Of a stretch of 64,000 nt of DNA, positions 47,765-64,000 are shown one piece after another (positions within the stretch are counted from its first letter, which is position 1; each line of letters begins with the position of its first letter). The stretch comes from Anaeromyxobacter soli (GTDB lineage: Bacteria > Myxococcota > Myxococcia > Myxococcales > Anaeromyxobacteraceae). The position numbers were made by a program, and so were the translations under genes. Under the pieces are notes generated by a model. That model worked only from the letters and a program-made list of their open reading frames with translations, was not told the DNA's origin and did not search any database. The stretch spans positions 1-64,000 of the forward strand of contig NZ_JAKZLF010000015.1 in NCBI RefSeq assembly GCF_022808855.1. The letters are read 5' to 3'.

Positions 47765-49150
47765 ATGACCGTCCCCCACTTCTCCTCCGACGAGCTCGCC
47801 GCCGCGACCGGCGGGCGCTGGATCGGCGCCCCGCCCGCGGAGGTCGCCGGCGTCTCGACCGACACCCGCACGCTCGCGCCGGGCGCGCTGTTCGTCGCCC
47901 TCGTGGGCGAGCGCTTCGACGCGCACGCCTACCTCGCCGAGGCGGCCGCGAAGGGCGCCGTCGCCGCGGTCGTGGCCGACGGCCGCGCGCCGGCCGGGGC
48001 GCCGCTGCCGCTCCTCTCGGTCCCGGACACCCTCCCCGCGCTCGGCGCCATCGCGCGCCACCACCGCCGCCGGTTCCAGATCCCCGTCGTCGGCGTCACC
48101 GGCTCGAACGGCAAGACCACGACCCGCGAGATGATCGCGGCGATCCTGGCGACGCGCGGCCCCGCCCTGAAGACCGAGGGCAACCTCAACAACGAGGTGG
48201 GCGTCCCGCTGACGCTCCTCGGCCTCGGGCCGGAGCACCGCTCGGCAGTCGTCGAGATGGGGATGAGCCACCCCGGGGAGATCACGCGCCTCGCCGCCAT
48301 CGCCGAGCCGTACGTGGGGGTCGTGACGCTCGCCGCGCCCGCCCACCTCGAGGGGCTCGGCACCCTGGACGCGGTCGCCGACGCGAAGGCCGAGCTGTAC
48401 CGGGGGCTGCCGGAGACCGGCATCGTCATCGCCAACGCGGACGATCCCCGCATGCTGCGGCGCGCCCAGGCGAGCGGCCACCGGATGCTCACCTTCGCCG
48501 CGGCGGCGGGCCGGCGCGGCGACGTCGTCGTGCTCGAGATCGCCTCGCAGGGGGACGACGGGCTCCGCTTCGTGCTCGGCATCGGCAACCGCGAGGTGGA
48601 GGTGCACATCCCGGCGCTGGTGGGCGCGCACAACGCCGCGAACGCGGCGGCGGCCGCGGCGACCGGCGTCGCCCTCGGCTGCAGCGATCGCGAGATCGCG
48701 CAGGGGCTCGCGGCGGTCCGCCCGGTGGGGCGCCGCCTGCGCCTCGACCGGCTCGCCTCGGGCCTCCGGCTCGTCGACGACTGCTACAACGCGAACCCCT
48801 CCTCGATGTCCGCGGCGCTCCGCACGCTCGTCGATCTCGCGCGGCCCGACGCCCGGCCGGTGGCGGTGCTCGGCGACATGCTCGAGCTCGGCGCGTTCGA
48901 GGAGGAGGCCCACCGCGCCCTCGGCGCGGAGGCCGCCCGCGCGGGCGTCTCCCTCCTCGCCGCGTTCGGGCCGAGGGCCCGCGCCACCGCCGAGGCGGCG
49001 CGCGCCGCCGGCCTCGAGACCTTCCACACCGACGACATGGACGCGCTCGTCCGCTGGGCCCGGGCCGCGATCGCGCCGTCGAACGACGTCCTCCTCGTCA
49101 AGGGCAGCCGCGGCATGAAGCTCGAGCGGCTCGTCGAGGCCCTCCGCTAG
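47765..49150 (+). CDS. murF: UDP-MurNAc-tripeptide:D-Ala-D-Ala ligase MurF
   Basis: 461-residue Mur ligase. GSNGKTTTRE binds ATP; EGNLNNEVGVPLTLL and VVEMGMSHPGEI are MurF marks, and DDCYNANPSSM is the C-terminal domain signature. It adds the D-Ala-D-Ala dipeptide. Starts 10 bases after murE. Confidence 0.97.
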   Translation: MTVPHFSSDELAAATGGRWIGAPPAEVAGVSTDTRTLAPGALFVALVGERFDAHAYLAEAAAKGAVAAVVADGRAPAGAPLPLLSVPDTLPALGAIARHHRRRFQIPVVGVTGSNGKTTTREMIAAILATRGPALKTEGNLNNEVGVPLTLLGLGPEHRSAVVEMGMSHPGEITRLAAIAEPYVGVVTLAAPAHLEGLGTLDAVADAKAELYRGLPETGIVIANADDPRMLRRAQASGHRMLTFAAAAGRRGDVVVLEIASQGDDGLRFVLGIGNREVEVHIPALVGAHNAANAAAAAATGVALGCSDREIAQGLAAVRPVGRRLRLDRLASGLRLVDDCYNANPSSMSAALRTLVDLARPDARPVAVLGDMLELGAFEEEAHRALGAEAARAGVSLLAAFGPRARATAEAARAAGLETFHTDDMDALVRWARAAIAPSNDVLLVKGSRGMKLERLVEALR

Positions 49151-55461: not shown

Positions 55462-56421
55462 GTGCCGGGCGCGGTCTTCGGGGCGGGCGCCGCCGACTGG
55501 CGCGCGGAGCTCGCGCGGCGGGTGCGCGGGGAGCTCGTGCGCGACGCGCCCCTCGCGCCGCGCACGGCCGTGCGGGTCGGCGGTCCGGCCGACCTCCTCG
55601 TCCGCCCGGAGGATCCCGACGCGCTCGCGGCGCTGCTCCGCGCGGTCCGCGAGCTCGGGGTGCCGCTCACGATCCTGGGCGGCGGCGCGAACACCCTCGT
55701 CGCCGACGCGGGCGTGCGCGGCGTCGTCCTCCGGCTGCCGCAGGGGTTCGGGGAGGAGCGCCGGGAGGGCTCCCGGCTCGTGCTCGGCGCCGGCGCGCCC
55801 ACCACCCGGCTGTGGATCCAGGCCCACGCAGCGGGCCTCGTCGGGGTGGAGTTCGTGGCGGGCATCCCCGGCACGCTCGGCGGCGCGGTGGCGATGAACG
55901 CCGGGACGACCCTCGGCGAGATGAAGGACGTCGTCACCGAGGTCGAGCTCGCGACCGCCGACGGCGCGGGGTTCGTCCCCGCCGCGGCGCTCGGCTTCGC
56001 CTACCGCACCTGCCTCCTCCCCGCGGGCGCCGTCGTCACGCGGCTCGCGGTGACCCTGCGGCCGGGCGACGTGGCCGAGAGCGCGCGCGTCATGCAGGAG
56101 GACCGCGATCGGCGCCGGCGGACGCAGCCGCTCGACCGTCCCACCTTCGGCTCGACGTTCACGAACCCCCCGGGCGACTTCGCCGGCCGGCTCATCGAGG
56201 CCGTCGGCCTCAAGGGGTACCGTGTCGGGAACGCCACGTGGTCGGACGTCCACGCGAACTTCATCTCGAACCTCGGCGGGGCCACCGCGCGCGACGTCCT
56301 CGCGCTCATGGCGCTCGCGCGGCGCAAGGTGAAGGAGCGGTTCGGCCTCGCGCTCGAGACCGAGGTCCGGCTCGTGGGCGAGTTCCTTGCAGAGGAGCTC
56401 GAGGCGCTGCGCGGGGAGTGA
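55462..56421 (+). CDS. murB: UDP-N-acetylenolpyruvoylglucosamine reductase MurB
   Basis: 319-residue FAD enzyme. ILGGGANTLV, GIPGTLGGAVAMNAG, YRTC and GSTFTNP are MurB marks; the catalytic Ser is in FGSTF and the final Glu is in ETEVRLVG. It makes UDP-MurNAc with NADPH. GTG 55462, one base after murC. Confidence 0.97.
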   Translation: MPGAVFGAGAADWRAELARRVRGELVRDAPLAPRTAVRVGGPADLLVRPEDPDALAALLRAVRELGVPLTILGGGANTLVADAGVRGVVLRLPQGFGEERREGSRLVLGAGAPTTRLWIQAHAAGLVGVEFVAGIPGTLGGAVAMNAGTTLGEMKDVVTEVELATADGAGFVPAAALGFAYRTCLLPAGAVVTRLAVTLRPGDVAESARVMQEDRDRRRRTQPLDRPTFGSTFTNPPGDFAGRLIEAVGLKGYRVGNATWSDVHANFISNLGGATARDVLALMALARRKVKERFGLALETEVRLVGEFLAEELEALRGE

Positions 56422-56488
56422 GCCGCGGAATGGTGAGCGAGGTCGCGGTAGGGTTCGAGGTCGCTGTCTGAGGATCGGGAGACGGACA

Positions 56489-57415
56489 ATGGGCAAGTGG
56501 ACGGGCAAGAAGGTCGCGGTGCTGTACGGCGGTCGCTCCTCGGAGCGCGAGGTCTCGCTCCGCACCGGCGCCGCCTGCGCCGACGCGCTCCGCACGAAGG
56601 GCCACGACGTCACGCTCGTGGACGTGGACACCGAGCTCGCCGCGCGGCTGCGCGAGCTCCGGATCGACGTCGCGTTCGTCGCGCTGCACGGCCGCTGGGG
56701 CGAGGACGGCTGCGTGCAGGGGCTCCTCGAGTGCATGGAGATCCCGTACACCGGCTCCGGCGTCACCGCGTCCGCGATGGGCATGGACAAGACGGTCTCG
56801 AAGGCGATCTTCAAGGCGCTCGGCCTCGACGTCATCGAGTACCGCGCGTTCCCGCCCGGGCGCGCCGCCGAGATCCGCGCCTCGGACCTCCCCTTCGGCG
56901 TGCCCTGCGTCGTGAAGCCCGCCGGCGAGGGCTCCTCGGTGGGCGTGCAGATCGTGAAGGACGCGGCCCGGCTCGCCGACGCGTGCCGCGAGGCGGCCCG
57001 CTACAAGGGCGACGTCATCGTCGAGCGCTACGTGAAGGGCACCGAGGTGAACGTGGCCGTGCTCGAGGGCAAGGCGCTCGGCGCGATCGAGATCGCCCCC
57101 GCGAACGAGTTCTACGACTACGCCGCCAAGTACACCGCCGGGACCACCAAGTACTACTACCCGGCCCGCATCCCCGAGGCGCACGTGGCGCGCGTGATGG
57201 CCGCCGCGGAGGTCGCGCACCGCGGGCTCGGCTGCAGCGGGGTGAGCCGCGTGGACTTCATCGTGGCGCCCGACGGCACGCCGTTCATCCTCGAGGTGAA
57301 CACCCTCCCCGGCATGACGGCGACCTCTCTCGTGCCGAAGATCGCCGCCGGCCTGGGGCTCGCCTTCCCCGATCTGTGCGAGCGCATCCTCGACGGCGCC
57401 GCGCTCAAGGCGTAG
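56489..57415 (+). CDS. ddl: D-alanine-D-alanine ligase
   Basis: 308-residue ATP-grasp enzyme. YGGRSSEREVSL, ALHGRWGEDG, KPAGEGSSVGV, RVDFIV and EVNTLPGMT are Ddl marks. It makes the dipeptide used by MurF. ATG 56489. The 67-base gap after murB holds two close copies of GAGGTCGC. It is the last dcw gene before the accessory insertion, and overlaps the next, convergent gene by 11 bases. Confidence 0.97.
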   Translation: MGKWTGKKVAVLYGGRSSEREVSLRTGAACADALRTKGHDVTLVDVDTELAARLRELRIDVAFVALHGRWGEDGCVQGLLECMEIPYTGSGVTASAMGMDKTVSKAIFKALGLDVIEYRAFPPGRAAEIRASDLPFGVPCVVKPAGEGSSVGVQIVKDAARLADACREAARYKGDVIVERYVKGTEVNVAVLEGKALGAIEIAPANEFYDYAAKYTAGTTKYYYPARIPEAHVARVMAAAEVAHRGLGCSGVSRVDFIVAPDGTPFILEVNTLPGMTATSLVPKIAAGLGLAFPDLCERILDGAALKA

Positions 57416-58283
57416 GCCGCGCCGCCGGCCCCTCCGCCCGCAGCAGCGCCGGGACCTCGAAGCGCCACACGTAGCCGACCCGCAGCTCGAGCGGCGGGGC
57501 GTCCGCGGTGACCCCGGCGTTCAGCGCCGCCCTGAGCTCGCCGCCGCGCACCGGCACGATCGCTCCGAGCCCGAGCACGCTCGGGCGATCGGCGAACCGC
57601 CACCCGGCGTACCCGCGCCACTCGAGCTCGACCGCCGCGCCCGACGGGCCGCTCGCGCGCAGGGTCCCGCCGTAGGCGAACGCGTCGTCCTGCCGGTTCT
57701 GCGCGAACTGCCAGGAGACGAAGCCGACCCGCCCGAGCGCGCGCAGGCGCGCCGCGCCGAGCGCGCCGACGTCCTTGCCCGCGAGGAGGTCGATCGCGTA
57801 GCCCGGCGCGTTCGTGAACCGGCGCGAGGCGAGCCCCTTGCCCGTGGCCGACTTCACGCTGAGCCGGAGGCCGATCGCGGGCGCCGCGCGCTCCCGGAGG
57901 AGGAGGAAGCGTGCGCCGAACCGGGCGTCTCCCGGGGTGCCGTCCGCACGGTAGCGCGCTCCGAGCCGGTGCTGCGTCGCCGTGGAGGTGCGCCAGATCT
58001 CGATGGGCGTCCCGTCCACCTCCAGCGCGGCGGTCTCGCGGAACGGAAACAGCAGCCGGAGGTAGGGGGTGGCGGCGTGATCCCGGAGCGCGAGGCCGGA
58101 GACCTGTGCCGCGGCGGACAGCTCCACCTCCACGCGCGTCCCGATCACGGGGTCGACGTTGGGCAGGACCGGGAGCGCGTTGTAGCCCATCATGCCGGGG
58201 ACGAGCGGCCAGTCGGGCGAGCCGGGCCACGCCGCGGTCGCAGCGGCGGCGAGGGACGCGAGCAGCAGGGACGCGCTCAGCAC
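57405..58283 (-). CDS. Probable outer-membrane beta-barrel protein, unknown function
   Basis: 292 residues. A signal peptide (MLSASLLLASLAAAATA) from GTG 58283 precedes a mature part of alternating polar and hydrophobic residues, with aromatic-rich strands (YAGWRFADRP, LRVGYVWRFEV) near the end, as in small outer-membrane barrels. No family recognised. The upstream in-frame frame to 58418 is Arg-rich and rejected. It is convergent to ddl and starts the 6-kb interruption of the dcw cluster. Confidence 0.7.
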   Translation of the reverse strand: MLSASLLLASLAAAATAAWPGSPDWPLVPGMMGYNALPVLPNVDPVIGTRVEVELSAAAQVSGLALRDHAATPYLRLLFPFRETAALEVDGTPIEIWRTSTATQHRLGARYRADGTPGDARFGARFLLLRERAAPAIGLRLSVKSATGKGLASRRFTNAPGYAIDLLAGKDVGALGAARLRALGRVGFVSWQFAQNRQDDAFAYGGTLRASGPSGAAVELEWRGYAGWRFADRPSVLGLGAIVPVRGGELRAALNAGVTADAPPLELRVGYVWRFEVPALLRAEGPAARPTP

Positions 58284-58474
58284 GTTGGCTGACGCTAGGT
58301 GCGGGCGCTGCCCGCGCGCGACTCCCCGGTCGCGCCGGACGCGCCGCGTCGGCCCATCGACCGCGGGCGCAGCCCGCGCGCCCTTCCCCCGATGGTGTCG
58401 CGCGCGACGCGCATGCATGCGAGACTGCGCCGCCGCGCCCGGGACGCGGGCGCGCGACGCAAGGAGAATGCCCG

Positions 58475-58819
58475 ATGCGCACCCCCACCCTCGCCCTCGT
58501 CGCCCTGCTCGGCGCCCTCGCCGGCCTCGCCGCCTGCGATCGCCGCCCCGGACCCGGTGAGCCGGTGAGGATCACGGTGACGAAGCGCGGCTTCGAGCCC
58601 TGGAAGGTGCAGGCGAGGAAGGACGTCCCCCTCACCCTCGTGGTCACGCGCACCACCGACGAGACCTGCGCGAAGGAGCTCGTGCTCCCCGAGCTCGGCA
58701 TCCACCAGCCGCTGCCGCTGAACGAGCCGGTCACCGTCTCCTTCACGCCGGCGCGCGCCGGCGAGCTCAGGTACGCCTGCGCGATGAACATGTTCCAGGG
58801 CGTCATCGAGGTGCGGTGA
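58475..58819 (+). CDS. Cupredoxin-like lipoprotein
   Basis: 114 residues. Lipoprotein signal with LAAC (C21), then a single cupredoxin-like domain (FEPWKVQARKDVPLTLVVTR, FTPARAGELRYACAMNMF). Cys and Met near the end, with a His at GIHQP, could bind copper, as in the Cupredoxin_1 group found with heavy-metal transporters. AAGGAG lies 8 bases before ATG 58475. Copper handling is inferred, and a multicopper oxidase gene lies 2 kb away. Confidence 0.85.
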   Translation: MRTPTLALVALLGALAGLAACDRRPGPGEPVRITVTKRGFEPWKVQARKDVPLTLVVTRTTDETCAKELVLPELGIHQPLPLNEPVTVSFTPARAGELRYACAMNMFQGVIEVR

Positions 58820-58879
58820 CGCCGGCGTGCGCCGCGCCGCGCTCCGGGTATACCTCTCTGCCGCTCTCCGAAGGTCCCC

Positions 58880-59377
58880 TTGCGCACGCTCCTCTACGTC
58901 CTCTCCATCATCGCGGTGAACGCGGCCTTCGTCGTGTTCCCGCCCGTCCGGCCGCCCTGGGGCGGCGTGTTCTCGTTCGCGACGCTGCTCGTGGGCGCGA
59001 CGTTCATCCTGCGCGACTACGCCCAGCAGGAGATCGGCGGCAAGGTGTGGCTCGCCTCGCTCGCGGGCGCGCTCATCACCGCCGCGTTCAACCCGCGGCT
59101 CGCGCTCGTGTCCGGCGGCGCCTTCTTCGCGGCCGAGCTCCTCGACCAGCTCGTGTTCACGAAGGTGCGCGGCTCGTTCCGCGCGCGCGTGCTCTGGTCG
59201 CAGCTCGCCGGCGTGGCGCTCGACACTGGCGCGTTCCTCGTGGGGATCGCCTTCGCCCTCGGCATCCCCTGGAGCTGGGCGAGCTACCTGACCATGAGCG
59301 CCGGGAAGCTCGCGGCGCTGTCGTACCTCGCCGTCGCCCGCCGGCGCCCGGCGCCGCCGCGGGGCGCGCTCGCCTGA
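58880..59377 (+). CDS. VUT-family membrane transporter (vitamin/queuosine-precursor uptake-like)
   Basis: 165 residues with about five helices. VFSFATLLVGATFILRDYAQQ matches the VUT (YhhQ/PF02592) family, whose characterised members take up queuosine precursors. It is shorter than the usual 200-230 residues. TTG start 58880 follows a modest AAGG site. Substrate not established. Confidence 0.75.
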   Translation: MRTLLYVLSIIAVNAAFVVFPPVRPPWGGVFSFATLLVGATFILRDYAQQEIGGKVWLASLAGALITAAFNPRLALVSGGAFFAAELLDQLVFTKVRGSFRARVLWSQLAGVALDTGAFLVGIAFALGIPWSWASYLTMSAGKLAALSYLAVARRRPAPPRGALA

Positions 59378-59394
59378 CCGGGAGCGCGCTCGGC

Positions 59395-59925
59395 TCAGCG
59401 CTTCGGCGCGAGCGCCTCGAGGCGCCGGATCCACTCGTCCGAGAGGCCGCGCGCGCGGGCGCCGCGAAGCAGCACCTCCAGGTAGGCGGGTGACGGCGGC
59501 GCGTCACTCGCCAGGCGGCGCGAGTTGGTGGCGCGGTAGGCGATGGCGGGGACGTGCGGGCCGCCGTCGACCGGCGAGAGCTCCACCTCGAACGCCTCGT
59601 ACAGCCCTGAGACCGCCCCCTCCCTGTGATCGGCGAGGCCGCGCGACGCGCCGGGCATGGGCAGCGCGATCCCCTCGACGACGTCGCCCGGAGAGCGGGC
59701 GAGGTTCGCCACCGCGCCTCCCCACGCGCGGGAGAGCACGTCGAACGCGAGGCGGTAGCCGACGAGCCGCACGCGCCGGGCGCCCTCGAACGACGGCGCC
59801 GCGTAGCCGTGCTCCTGGGCCCACGCGGCGAACGCCTCGCCGTCGAGCGACGAGCCGTACACGAACCAGACGAAGTCCGGCCCCGCGGTCGCCTCGTGCG
59901 CCTTGCCGAAGAGGGGGAGCTTCAT
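59395..59925 (-). CDS. Gamma-glutamylcyclotransferase-like (AIG2/GGCT) protein
   Basis: 176 residues of the GGCT-like fold: the binding loop FVYGSSL near residue 22 and a candidate catalytic Glu in HREGAVSG or GLYE. Members split gamma-glutamyl peptides or other amides. Substrate unknown. ATG 59925. Ends 17 bases from the convergent VUT gene. Confidence 0.8.
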   Translation of the reverse strand: MKLPLFGKAHEATAGPDFVWFVYGSSLDGEAFAAWAQEHGYAAPSFEGARRVRLVGYRLAFDVLSRAWGGAVANLARSPGDVVEGIALPMPGASRGLADHREGAVSGLYEAFEVELSPVDGGPHVPAIAYRATNSRRLASDAPPSPAYLEVLLRGARARGLSDEWIRRLEALAPKR

Positions 59926-60150
59926 GCAGTCGGCGATCTACCGCGGAACGTCGCGGGGCGCTCGTGCCCGGGAGAGGCGCGCGCCGCGCGGCGGCTTCCA
60001 CGTGCGCCGGCACCCCACCTCGCCATCCATCGTGACGCCTCCGTTCTCCGGAGGGCGACGATCGCCCAGACGGCCCTTCACGGCGAGTACCCGTGCGGAG
60101 CGTGAAAGCCCATCGGCCGAACCGCGGACCCTCGGGCGGCGGCGACTGCG

Positions 60151-60399
60151 CTACGGCGCCCGGCCGCTCTCGCCCCGCTCGAGCCGCTCCCTGAGATCGC
60201 GCACGCCCTGGCGGTCGTCGGACCAGAGGAGCCCGAGGTGGATCGTGCGGGGCGGCACCCCGTCGTCGTCCGCGACGTCGTAGAGCGCCTTGAGCCGCCA
60301 GCGCTCCTGCTCGCAGGCCTTCTTGATCTCGAACCGCACCTCGTGGCCGGTGCGCCGCAGCGCCTCGAGCGCGGCGGCGGCTTCGTCGGGGAGGAACAC
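60151..60399 (-). CDS. Small hypothetical protein
   Basis: 82 residues, charged and helical: FLPDEAAAALEALRRTGHEVRFEIKKACEQERWRLKALYDV. No known family, one cysteine, no signal peptide. The GTG start at 60399 lacks a ribosome site. The codon bias and a coherent hydrophobic pattern favour a real gene. It follows the multicopper oxidase gene on the same strand. Confidence 0.55.
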   Translation of the reverse strand: MFLPDEAAAALEALRRTGHEVRFEIKKACEQERWRLKALYDVADDDGVPPRTIHLGLLWSDDRQGVRDLRERLERGESGRAP

Positions 60400-60550
60400 G
60401 GGGGGATGAGAGCACGGAGTGACCGGCGGGCCAAGGGCGCGGGGCAGCCTCCGCTTCCCGCGGCGCGCCCTCCCGAGCGCTCGCTCGCAGCTCGCGACGG
60501 CGCCCCGGCCGCGAGCTCGCGACCGGGGCGCCGGGGTGCCGCCGAGATGA

Positions 60551-62965
60551 TCAGTAGCTCGTGACTTCCGTCCCCCGGGTGAACTCCCGCGTCACGCCGG
60601 AAGCCGGCGTGACGAAGTCCGGCCGCATCATCTCGTTGTCCTCGTGGTCGATGATGTGGCAGTGCCAGACGTAGTTGTACGTATCGTCGCCCGATGGGTC
60701 GAACGCGAACCTCGCCGCCGCGGTGGTGGCCGTGTCGGTGGGCCCCCACCGCACGAGGATGCGCGTCACCATCCCGGGCGGCGCCTGGACGGTGTCCTTC
60801 CAGCCGCGCTCGTAGGTGACCGCGGGCAGCACCGGCCCCTGCAGGTAGGGCGTGACGTCGGGGTTTCCGCCCACGACCGGGACGCCCGTCCGGACCGGGT
60901 AATCGCGGCGCAGGGCGGTCGGGATCGTGCGCGAGGTCGCCTGCGGCGAGTCCTTCGTCCCGTACGCGAGCGGCGGGCCGTAGCCCGGACAGTAGGTCGT
61001 GCCCATGGGGTCGACGGGCGTGCAGCCCGCCGGGAAGGCCAGGGCGTACGCGGCCGCGTACTTCGCGGCGTCGAACCTCTGCCGGCTGAGGATCTGGAAC
61101 TGCACGAGGTGGAGGTGGATCGGGTGCGCGTCGGCGGTGGTGTTCACGATCTCCCAGACCTCGACGTCGCCCTCCACCGGGACCTCCGAGTAGGCGAGGT
61201 CGTCACCGTCCCGAGGCGTGAAGTCCGTCCTCGGCTCGCCCATCGCCGCGACGCCGGTCCACTTCGTGTTGTTGACGAGGATCTCGAGCGGGCCACCCGG
61301 ATACGCGGTGAGCGCGCCGTTGATGGGGTTCACCGCGGTCATCGGCATGCCCATCACCTCGTTGAGCGTGAGCTGCCGGACGAGATCGGGGGCGACGCTC
61401 GGCGTCACCGCGCCGGGCTGGACGAGCCGCCGCATGGGCTGCTTGCGGACGATCGCGCCGGGCGCGGCCGGATCGTAGGGGGTTCCCTGCTCCGCAGGGC
61501 CGATCTGGAGCTGGAGGATCTGGCCGGTCGTGGCGCCATTGGGCGTCTCACCCCCAGGATAGGGCGCCCGCGCCGTGTTCCGCAGCAGCAGGGTCTGGCC
61601 GGCGTACTTCGTGAAGTCGACGATCACCTCGTACCGCTCGCCCGGCATGATCACGAGCTTCTGCGGGATCGTCTTCGTCGCGCTGGGGTCGATCTTCGCG
61701 GGCGCGTCGAGGTAGCCGCCGTCGGTCCCGATCACCCACAGCGCCGGGCCGTTCACCTTCGTCTTCGGGTTCGTGAGGAAGAGCTCGTAGGTGCGCGCGT
61801 TCGAGCCGTTGAGAATGATGAAGCGGTGCCGCTTCGCCGGGATCGCGAGGCGCGGCCAAACCTTCCCGTTCACCGCGATCGCGTCGCCGAGGAACTCCGG
61901 GTTCCAGTACGGGTGCTCGGGGTTGAGCGCCCAGCCCGGGCTCGGCGCGGTGAAGCCGCCGTTCAGGCCTGCGGTGAACCAGAGCTCACCGTTCGTGTAG
62001 AACCTCCGGTCCTGGATGACGATGGGGATCGTCTCCTCGACGGCCGGCAGGAAGTCCGCGAGCTTCGCCGGATCGTCCTTCAGCGGGTACGCGCCGGCGA
62101 GCCCCGCGTAGACGTTGAGGCGCGTCGCGCCGAGCGTGTGATCGTGGAACCAGAGCGGCGCGGCCTCCTGGACGTTGGGGTACGTGTAGACGGCCTTGCC
62201 CGGCACGGCGTCCGCGGGCCCCTCGTAACCCTTGGTGTAGTACTTCGGGCCGAACCGCGAGTCCTCGCCCAGGTCCGGGGTGAACCACGAGTCCGGGGAG
62301 CCGTCGACCTCGGCCGGCACCTCGCCGCCGTGGAGGTGCGCCACCGCAGGGATCGGTCCGCCGTAGTTCGATGCGCACGGATCCCCCGGGGGCGGGTACA
62401 TGACGAAGTTGTTGTTCGCGTCCTTCCACTCGTTCATCGCGGCCTTCATCATGCAGCCGAGGCTGAGGGGATCCGCCCAGTGCAGCGTCTGGTCGGTGCT
62501 CGTCCGGTACGCGTCGAGCTTCGTGGTGGCCACCGTGCCGAGCTCGTTCACGTACGTGATCTCGGTCGGGATGCCGCGCTGCGCGACGACGACGGGACCG
62601 AGGTACGTGTCGAGAGTCTTACCCGACGTCGGACAGCCTCCGGCCCGGTACGCCCACGTCGTCGTGGGGCCGTAGAGCTTCCTCGGCAGCATCTGCACCC
62701 TGACCTCGCACATGTGCAGCGAGAGCTTCCCGGGCGTCCTCGTGGAGGGGTCGTACCCGTAGTGCGTGTCGATGGTCCAGGGCGGCGTGTCCGCGGCCTC
62801 CCCGCCCTGGAGGTTGATCCGCGGTAGCTCCTCCATCCACTTCGGGATGGCGCTCCCGGCCAGCACCGTCGGCGGCACTTGACCCGCTCCAGCGCTCGCC
62901 CACCCCGCCGCCAGCAACGCCGCCACACCGCGCAGCCACCTGCCCGTCCGCCTCGTCGTCTTCAT
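60551..62965 (-). CDS. Large CotA-like multicopper oxidase
   Basis: 804 residues; CotA laccases have about 510. The signal peptide has a possible twin-arginine motif (TRRTGRWL), fitting export of a folded copper protein. Copper ligands are in HLHGG, WFHDHTLGATRLNVYAG, HPIHLHLVQF and HCHIIDHEDNEMM (the last Met is the expected T1 axial ligand). The HEDxxMM end is typical of CotA and bilirubin-oxidase-like enzymes. Third-position bases are somewhat less GC-rich than in neighbouring genes. It oxidises phenols, metals or bile pigments; a copper-tolerance or Mn/Fe role is possible. ATG 62965 follows a GGGGG site. Confidence 0.93.
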   Translation of the reverse strand: MKTTRRTGRWLRGVAALLAAGWASAGAGQVPPTVLAGSAIPKWMEELPRINLQGGEAADTPPWTIDTHYGYDPSTRTPGKLSLHMCEVRVQMLPRKLYGPTTTWAYRAGGCPTSGKTLDTYLGPVVVAQRGIPTEITYVNELGTVATTKLDAYRTSTDQTLHWADPLSLGCMMKAAMNEWKDANNNFVMYPPPGDPCASNYGGPIPAVAHLHGGEVPAEVDGSPDSWFTPDLGEDSRFGPKYYTKGYEGPADAVPGKAVYTYPNVQEAAPLWFHDHTLGATRLNVYAGLAGAYPLKDDPAKLADFLPAVEETIPIVIQDRRFYTNGELWFTAGLNGGFTAPSPGWALNPEHPYWNPEFLGDAIAVNGKVWPRLAIPAKRHRFIILNGSNARTYELFLTNPKTKVNGPALWVIGTDGGYLDAPAKIDPSATKTIPQKLVIMPGERYEVIVDFTKYAGQTLLLRNTARAPYPGGETPNGATTGQILQLQIGPAEQGTPYDPAAPGAIVRKQPMRRLVQPGAVTPSVAPDLVRQLTLNEVMGMPMTAVNPINGALTAYPGGPLEILVNNTKWTGVAAMGEPRTDFTPRDGDDLAYSEVPVEGDVEVWEIVNTTADAHPIHLHLVQFQILSRQRFDAAKYAAAYALAFPAGCTPVDPMGTTYCPGYGPPLAYGTKDSPQATSRTIPTALRRDYPVRTGVPVVGGNPDVTPYLQGPVLPAVTYERGWKDTVQAPPGMVTRILVRWGPTDTATTAAARFAFDPSGDDTYNYVWHCHIIDHEDNEMMRPDFVTPASGVTREFTRGTEVTSY

Positions 62966-63001
62966 GTTTCCCCCCCTGCCGACTCCCACGACGCTAGGTG
63001 C

Positions 63002-63014
63002 TCGTGTGGCACGA
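63002..63014 (-). promoter_or_regulatory. Palindrome upstream of the multicopper oxidase gene
   Basis: TCGTG-TGG-CACGA, a perfect 5-bp inverted repeat 37-49 bases before the oxidase start. This is a natural operator place; the binding protein is unknown. Confidence 0.4.
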
Positions 63015-63022
63015 CGTATGCC
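63007..63022 (+). promoter_or_regulatory. Sigma54-like -24/-12 site
   Basis: TGGCACG-N4-ATGCC: a GG and a GC doublet 12 bases apart, matching most of the sigma54 consensus. It points towards ftsQ, 458 bases away, and overlaps the palindrome. It may be chance. Confidence 0.35.
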
Positions 63023-63261
63023 GCCCGATGACGCTACGAGGAGACCCCTAGCCCAGGAGTCGAGGTACCGGCCGGGCGATGCACCAGGGCTTTCGCGGGC
63101 GTTTGGAGAATCGGTCGATCGAGGTCCGCTCGAAGAGGGGCACCGCCGAGCGGTAGAGCGACCCACGAGAGCCCGAGCGCCGGCAGGGGCGAAAGAAGGG
63201 ACGGCGGCAGGTGGAGGTGGCGACGGGCGTGTGCCCGAAGATCGGTCAGTTCACTGCGGGT

Positions 63262-63285
63262 GACCTCGACCTCGACCTCGACCGT
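63262..63285. repeat. Short GACCTC tandem repeat
   Basis: Three GACCTC units plus GACCGT, related to the arrays at 25760 and 41461. Confidence 0.7.
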
Positions 63286-63479
63286 CCTGCCCCACACCGG
63301 CTCGGCCCTCCCCCGCATCAGGGCCGGCCAACCCGCTGATCGGACTCGCCCCTGGGTCGCGTGTAGGTCGAAAACTTGCGGCCCCCCGGCCCTCTGCCAT
63401 CCTCCAACATCGGGCGATACCGCCCGGAAGCGCGGCGGCCGTGTGCGGCGGCCCCGTGACCGGGCGCTGGGGAGCGGCG

Positions 63480-64000
63480 GTGGCGCGGGGTCCGAACCGG
63501 CGGCGCGTGGACAGGGTTCCGGGGGAGCGGCGGCGCAAGGCCGCGGCGGCCCTCCGCTTCGCGTTTCCGTTCGCCGTGCTCGCCCTCTGCCTGGCCGGTG
63601 CCGGGTTCGGCGTCTGGCGCGTGGCGGTGGTGGGCAGCCTGCTGCGCATCGACGAGATCCGCTTCGAGGGCCTCTCGCGCGCGACCGCGCAGGAGCTGCT
63701 CGAGCTCTCTCCGGTGGCGGTGGGGGACCACCTGCTCGCGGTCGATCCCGACGCGGTGGCGGCGGCGCTGCGGCGGCACCCGTGGATCGCCTCGGTGGAG
63801 GTCCGCCGGCGGTTTCCTGCGGCGCTCGAGGTGGCGGTGGTGGAGCGGCGCGCGCGCGCCCTCGTCGATCTGGGTGCGCTCTACCTCGTCGACGAGCGGG
63901 GCGAGGTCTTCAAGCGGGCGACGCCCGGAGACGGGCTGGACCTGCCGGTGGTGACGGGTATCGGGCGCGAGGAGTGGGTCGAGCACCGGGACGACGTCGA
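63480..64000 (+). CDS. ftsQ: Cell division protein FtsQ (cut by window end)
   Basis: The first 173 residues are visible. A basic cytoplasmic segment, a membrane helix (LRFAFPFAVLALCLAGAGFGVW), then a POTRA domain (RIDEIRFEGLSRATAQELLELS, HPWIASVEVRRRFPAALEVAVVERRARALVD). GTG 63480 has GGGGAG 5 bases upstream and is preferred over GTG 63456. FtsQ links FtsL/FtsB to the early divisome. Its separation from ddl by 6 kb of accessory genes is unusual. Confidence 0.93.
   Translation, partial: MARGPNRRRVDRVPGERRRKAAAALRFAFPFAVLALCLAGAGFGVWRVAVVGSLLRIDEIRFEGLSRATAQELLELSPVAVGDHLLAVDPDAVAAALRRHPWIASVEVRRRFPAALEVAVVERRARALVDLGALYLVDERGEVFKRATPGDGLDLPVVTGIGREEWVEHRDDV

Follow-up and report, generated by a model that had tools for sequence, protein, structure and literature searches.

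The first 64,000 nucleotides of contig NZ_JAKZLF010000015.1 of Anaeromyxobacter soli (hereafter the window, meaning this whole stretch) carry part of the division and cell wall (dcw) cluster, in which the D-alanine--D-alanine ligase gene ddl and the gene ftsQ are separated by a block of six unrelated genes, two of them copper-type. Comparison with related genomes indicates that this interruption is real and old, and that the junction has been refilled repeatedly in a cluster that is closed elsewhere. We favour the explanation, with a probability of roughly 75%, that insertions are tolerated in a slot bounded by the ddl stop codon on one side and an ftsQ promoter of its own on the other, and that the copper block there replaced an older cytochrome cassette. 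In an excerpt of PMC8871954, the dcw cluster is ranked among the most stable bacterial gene clusters. Its gene order is a textbook case of frozen order, and the family studied here offers a natural experiment, in which one junction reopens with varied cargo while its neighbours stay closed.

In the window, gene calls and Pfam matches confirmed the six-gene block on mixed strands that the original prediction had described. The ddl-ftsQ gap is 6079 bp and holds six open reading frames (four minus, two plus), of which the cupredoxin (PF13473) and the multicopper oxidase (PF07731) are the two copper-type genes (Table 1). The gene before the gap, ddl, is the last of the upstream dcw run (murF to ddl). 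The window genome (G000; 5.3 Mb in 80 contigs) belongs to the family Anaeromyxobacteraceae, and its nearest named relative by Ddl is Anaeromyxobacter terrae (G103), at 97% identity.

We searched 24 Anaeromyxobacteraceae genomes, 19 of which have ddl and ftsQ on one contig. The gap exceeded 1 kb in 15 of these 19, ranging from 1.4 to 6.1 kb, and was only 122-139 bp in the four genomes of genus g3. A minus-strand gene for a nine-heme cytochrome c (PF09699) was present in 13 of the 15 gaps, usually along with genes for a small cytochrome and for two or three TPR proteins, of which one is weakly AhpC/TSA-like; the remaining two gaps were those of the window and G066. The cytochrome alone was retained in the slot of G036 and G081, which we take to be near A. 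dehalogenans. Counted over whole genomes, the nine-heme cytochrome occurred in 18/24: between ddl and ftsQ in 13, beside either gene on split contigs in four, and elsewhere in one (G116). It was absent genome-wide at E ≤ 1e-20 from G000, G066, G103, G043, G095 and G191.

G116 belongs to g3, and its cytochrome lies at another locus (L139) together with two redoxin-TPR genes. Within the family, g3 joined g6 in a species tree built with FastTree (support 0.68), and in the cytochrome tree G116 grouped with G111 of g6 (0.98). Most likely, as the simplest order of events suggested by these trees, the cassette already occupied the slot in the family ancestor and was later moved out or lost in g3. The cassette of G116 (L139:6534-9181) lies near menaquinone-like genes (futalosine-type, UbiD/UbiX/UbiE-like; by eye).

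The copper block is not shared by all relatives; it was confined to the window genome, A. terrae and G066 (3/24). The slot of A. terrae matches that of the window in gene content, including a cupredoxin homologue in the same position. That of G066 keeps the secreted, VUT-like and small proteins (three of six) and has a different oxidase in the oxidase's place, which is 37% identical to the window oxidase, on the plus strand and not orthologous. The three genomes form a clade nested in the genus and sister (support 0.94) to G187, which carries the cassette beside ddl. Because these nested genomes have lost the cytochrome genome-wide, the copper block appears to have replaced the older cassette, rather than to have broken an intact cluster. 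The original suggestion of a later gain thus holds for the cargo but not for the break, as the junction was already interrupted beforehand in the family.

Genome-by-genome homologue searches covered four of the six block genes: the oxidase, the secreted protein, the VUT-like gene and the small protein. Homologues of the secreted protein were found in 8/24 family genomes, in this slot only in the three block genomes, and the VUT-like gene in 3/24, each time in the slot. The small protein (60151-60399) had matches in 14/24, with homologues elsewhere in the other genomes, and oxidase relatives at 51-55% identity, closer to the window oxidase than is the G066 slot oxidase (37%), sit elsewhere in G081, G104, G120 and G171.

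The other measured junctions of the cluster were closed. Gaps above 1 kb were found in 0/22 family loci at murG-murC, 0/23 at murC-murB, 0/23 at murB-ddl and 0/22 at ftsQ-ftsA, and the usual order murG-murC-murB-ddl-ftsQ-ftsA was kept at all measured junctions, adjacency failing only at ddl-ftsQ. Anaeromyxobacteraceae thus share the order of the usual dcw cluster but differ from it in carrying up to 6 kb of unrelated, often antisense genes between ddl and ftsQ (9 kb in one member of the Myxococcaceae). Among the papers listed by literature searches on Anaeromyxobacter, Myxococcus or Deltaproteobacteria dcw clusters and inserted genes, no title or abstract opening described an insertion at the ddl-ftsQ junction.

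Outside the family, distances between the Ddl and FtsQ domains were counted in 81 of 169 genomes, those with both domains on one contig among the matches listed. Among these matches, the domains were less than 1.5 kb apart in 60/67 Myxococcaceae and 13/14 genomes of other families, which bears out the claim that ddl and ftsQ are normally close, and more than 1.5 kb apart in 7/67 and 1/14, respectively. One further genome, G127, has a 2.8-kb gap and stands outside this count, as its ddl row was not among the matches listed. A set of 30 non-family loci included 10 picked for longer gaps, so that the rate of interruption there is not a frequency. By eye, the seven Myxococcaceae inserts carry at least five different cargos. 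The 9-kb insert of G185 (L135) holds six minus-strand genes resembling coenzyme A-transferase, aminotransferase and aldehyde dehydrogenase genes (by eye).

A promoter of its own had been postulated for ftsQ, and a conserved candidate was indeed found: a 66-bp leader is recognisable at 23/23 family ftsQ loci, behind filled and empty slots alike; the four insert-free g3 loci are among them. The consensus consists of GAAAAC, a TTGCCA-like hexamer, 16 bp, a CATNNT-like hexamer and then CGGGCGATA(C/G)CGCCCGGAAGC or a variant. In the window, TTGCGG (63376-63381) is followed after 16 bp by CATCCT (63398-63403), the palindrome CGGGCG-ATAC-CGCCCG (63411-63426) and GGAAGC. The leader alignment (A1) contained 21 of the 23 loci, to which the variants of G136 and G176 were added later; the second hexamer deviated in three g5 genomes and G164. 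Identity between genera was 0.50 in the leader but 0.28 in the adjoining upstream sequence and 0.39 in that downstream; shuffled copies gave 0.27. The exact 16-bp core of the leader occurs once in the genome. Set against a sigma-70 promoter, which has TTGACA- and TATAAT-like hexamers separated by 16-18 bp, the spacing of the hexamers is constant at 16 bp in 23/23 loci and two g3 loci have TTGACA, but the window copy falls under the scan threshold. Judged from its sequence, the leader is a candidate for an independent ftsQ promoter.

In Escherichia coli, the ftsQ promoters are located inside ddlB. The Anaeromyxobacteraceae candidate would resemble this ddlB-ftsA region in providing ftsQ with its own promoter near ddl, and it differs in being intergenic and in having a palindrome where transcription would be expected to start. 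The references of PMC4462998 and PMC8281045 include Ballesteros et al. 1998, on an E. coli ftsQ promoter near ddl (ftsQ1p).

Myxococcaceae have a distinct leader 5' of ftsQ, consisting of CTACAG-N8-CTGTAG, then CAAAAACTGGCG, then GCATGCG. It was recognised by pattern at 16/18 loci and by eye in the other two (G074, G083), and the pattern had zero matches in ~2.0 Mb of other loci. This leader (including L129-L138 and L031-L037) stands downstream of the insert in 7/7 interrupted loci. As a family-specific leader is kept 3' of the inserts in both families, the inserts fall upstream of it. At one Myxococcaceae locus (G008, L031), the leader is present although the 14 kb upstream of ftsQ yielded no murC, murB or ddl.

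Taken together, we propose that the dcw cluster of Anaeromyxobacteraceae may operate as at least two transcription units, a run ending in ddl and a second from ftsQ-ftsA onward, driven by a promoter within the 66-bp leader. The short stretch from the ddl stop to the leader would then be a tolerated insertion slot, because DNA inserted there separates no gene from its promoter. In the family ancestor, this slot was most likely filled already by a minus-strand cassette of nine-heme cytochrome and redoxin-TPR genes. The window clade would have lost it and received the copper block, built from genes several of which have homologues elsewhere in related genomes, and in g3 the slot would have been emptied, with one member keeping the cassette elsewhere. 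If so, the arrangement predicts the places at which the dcw cluster splits into units under separate control, and it draws attention to a short ftsQ leader conserved within each of two families. The original prediction is thus supported in part: the normal closeness of ddl and ftsQ, the later gain and the need of ftsQ for its own promoter stand, and the breaking of an intact cluster and the deviating composition of the oxidase (see below) do not.

Several observations weigh against this explanation. A sigma-70 scan of positions 56000-64000 gave no promoter over the threshold, and the -10 match of the leader is poor (CATCCT, three of six). In its putative hairpin, 93.7% of the alignment cells were paired, with 21 G-U/U-G cells and without double-sided compensatory change, and shuffles reached the same pair counts. 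For an RNA hairpin at the start of the ftsQ mRNA, the pattern is suggestive and covariation support is absent. An MraZ operator was considered as a further reading of the palindrome. The inserts in G094 and G127, of family f6, were found with neither leader recognised (the Anaeromyxobacteraceae one sought by eye, that of Myxococcaceae by pattern), which shows that inserts can occur without a leader. Furthermore, the grouping of g3 with g6 is modestly supported (0.68) and involves a long branch; if g3 were basal, the cassette would have come after the g3 split, against which the cytochrome tree argues.

The slot might instead be functional, with periplasmic redox genes kept beside ftsQ so that a divergent promoter region couples the redox or metal state of the envelope to division. 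We consider this unlikely. The slot stays filled in 15/19 family genomes, and the two types of cargo that adjoin ftsQ in the genus, the nine-heme cytochrome and a multicopper oxidase that arrived on two independent occasions, are predicted periplasmic redox proteins; however, the cargo of Myxococcaceae and f6 is mostly non-redox, g3 lives without cargo, the G066 oxidase is co-directional with ftsQ rather than divergent, and the closest cargo gene of the window lies ~400 bp from the leader. A broader version, which we likewise consider unlikely, is that ddl-ftsQ is a standing cargo slot throughout Myxococcota, kept open by the autonomous ftsQ leader, and that Anaeromyxobacter selectively fills it with periplasmic redox genes (a cytochrome, then oxidases twice). 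If true, envelope redox or metal metabolism would be tied to ftsQAZ expression.

It is improbable that one recently acquired foreign copper-resistance island broke an intact ddl-ftsQ cluster, and we regard this account as largely refuted. The restriction of the VUT-like gene to the window clade, the presence of both copper genes in one slot and the total GC of the oxidase (0.695, the lowest in the block) would fit such an island. Against it, the junction is interrupted already in the rest of the genus, relatives have homologues of the oxidase, secreted and small proteins elsewhere, and the slot oxidase of G066 is non-orthologous and in opposite orientation. Codon use is also native. Among 50 predicted window genes of at least 300 bp, GC content at third codon positions (GC3) was 0.970 ± 0.022; the oxidase had 0.951 (z -0.9) and the other block genes tested 0.955-0.988, with codon-distance z values of the block genes from -1.0 to 1.7 (oxidase, 1.7). 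The lower total GC of the oxidase is due to codon positions 1 and 2, i.e., to amino-acid content. The comparison of codon usage and GC3 therefore gave no sign of foreign origin, and the idea that a less GC-biased oxidase hints at later gain was not upheld. No Pfam match to an integrase or transposase was found among the six block genes, and the direct repeats detected pair inner sites, none bracketing the block; a mobile genetic island was thus rejected.

An assembly artefact is very improbable: the A. terrae block is spread over two contigs with a common 4.16-kb segment, but the window is a single unbroken contig at the block, the slot is also filled in each of the single-contig genomes G066 (5,277,990 bp), G171, G036, G081 and G062, and the recurrence of three block genes at this site in G066 shows that the arrangement is neither chance nor only an artefact. 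The two A. terrae copies of this segment, which runs from the AIG2-like gene to the oxidase, are 99.5% identical (L046/L049, C82; L006, C126). On one contig the oxidase is followed by a GAGGTC repeat and a DnaE2-like gene (by eye), on the other by ftsQ. Misassembly or a rearrangement at the GAGGTC repeat would account for the duplication.

Table 1. Features of the window from ddl to ftsQ.
Feature	Position	Strand	Evidence
ddl, D-alanine--D-alanine ligase	56489..57415	+	Pfam PF07478 (E=1e-52)/PF01820, NCBIfam NF002378, gene call
Secreted protein, family not recognised	57405..58283	-	Signal-peptide-like start; outer-membrane barrel guess by eye
Cupredoxin lipoprotein	58475..58819	+	PF13473 (E=3e-13)
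VUT/queuosine-precursor-transporter-like membrane protein	58880..59377	+	PF02592 (E=2e-4, below cut-off)
Gamma-glutamylcyclotransferase-like (AIG2) protein	59395..59925	-	PF13772 (E=1e-11)
Small protein, family not recognised	60151..60399	-	No Pfam match
CotA/PhsA-like multicopper oxidase	60551..62965	-	PF07731; best PDB match CotA laccase (4e-64)
GACCTC hexanucleotide repeat, between oxidase and ftsQ leader	63262..63284		Sequence reading
Conserved ftsQ leader	63366..63431	+	Found in 23/23 family ftsQ loci
ftsQ	63480..64000, continues past window end	+	POTRA_1 PF08478 (E=5e-16)

The window oxidase belongs to the multicopper oxidase superfamily, as its PF07731 score (55.4 bits, cut-off 20.4) and four intact copper-ligand motifs, HLHG(G), HDH(TL), HPIHLH and HCHI(I)..HE, indicate. 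It has these motifs in common with CotA laccase, PhsA and CueO but differs from them in its 804 residues with insertions, and it scored far under the NCBIfam equivalog cut-offs for CueO (128.9 bits, cut-off 525) and PhsA (196.3 bits, cut-off 950). FtsP/SufI has a copper-less oxidase fold whose copper ligands have been lost. An FtsP/SufI role was rejected for the window oxidase, which has the copper-ligand motifs and reached 59.5 of the required 581 bits. The oxidases in the same slot of the window and A. terrae are 73% identical, compared with 97% for Ddl and 98% for MurC, which may reflect either fast change or replacement. According to an excerpt of PMC6199725, multicopper oxidase and multiheme cytochrome c transcripts of Fe(III) reducers including Anaeromyxobacter shift with soil oxygenation.

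The reading frame of the secreted protein (57405-58283) is convergent with ddl and overlaps its stop by 11 bp. This protein had no match in Pfam or NCBIfam, and its structure model (predicted local distance difference test score 29) was unusable and set aside. ARAGORN called a proline transfer RNA within murF (48089-48177, minus strand), which is probably false because Rfam at the gathering threshold gave zero matches across the window. The start codon of ftsQ is a GTG at ~63480, with an alternative GTG at 63441. The cupredoxin (58475-58819) has a lipobox-like LAAC and a C.MNM copper motif, both recognised by eye.

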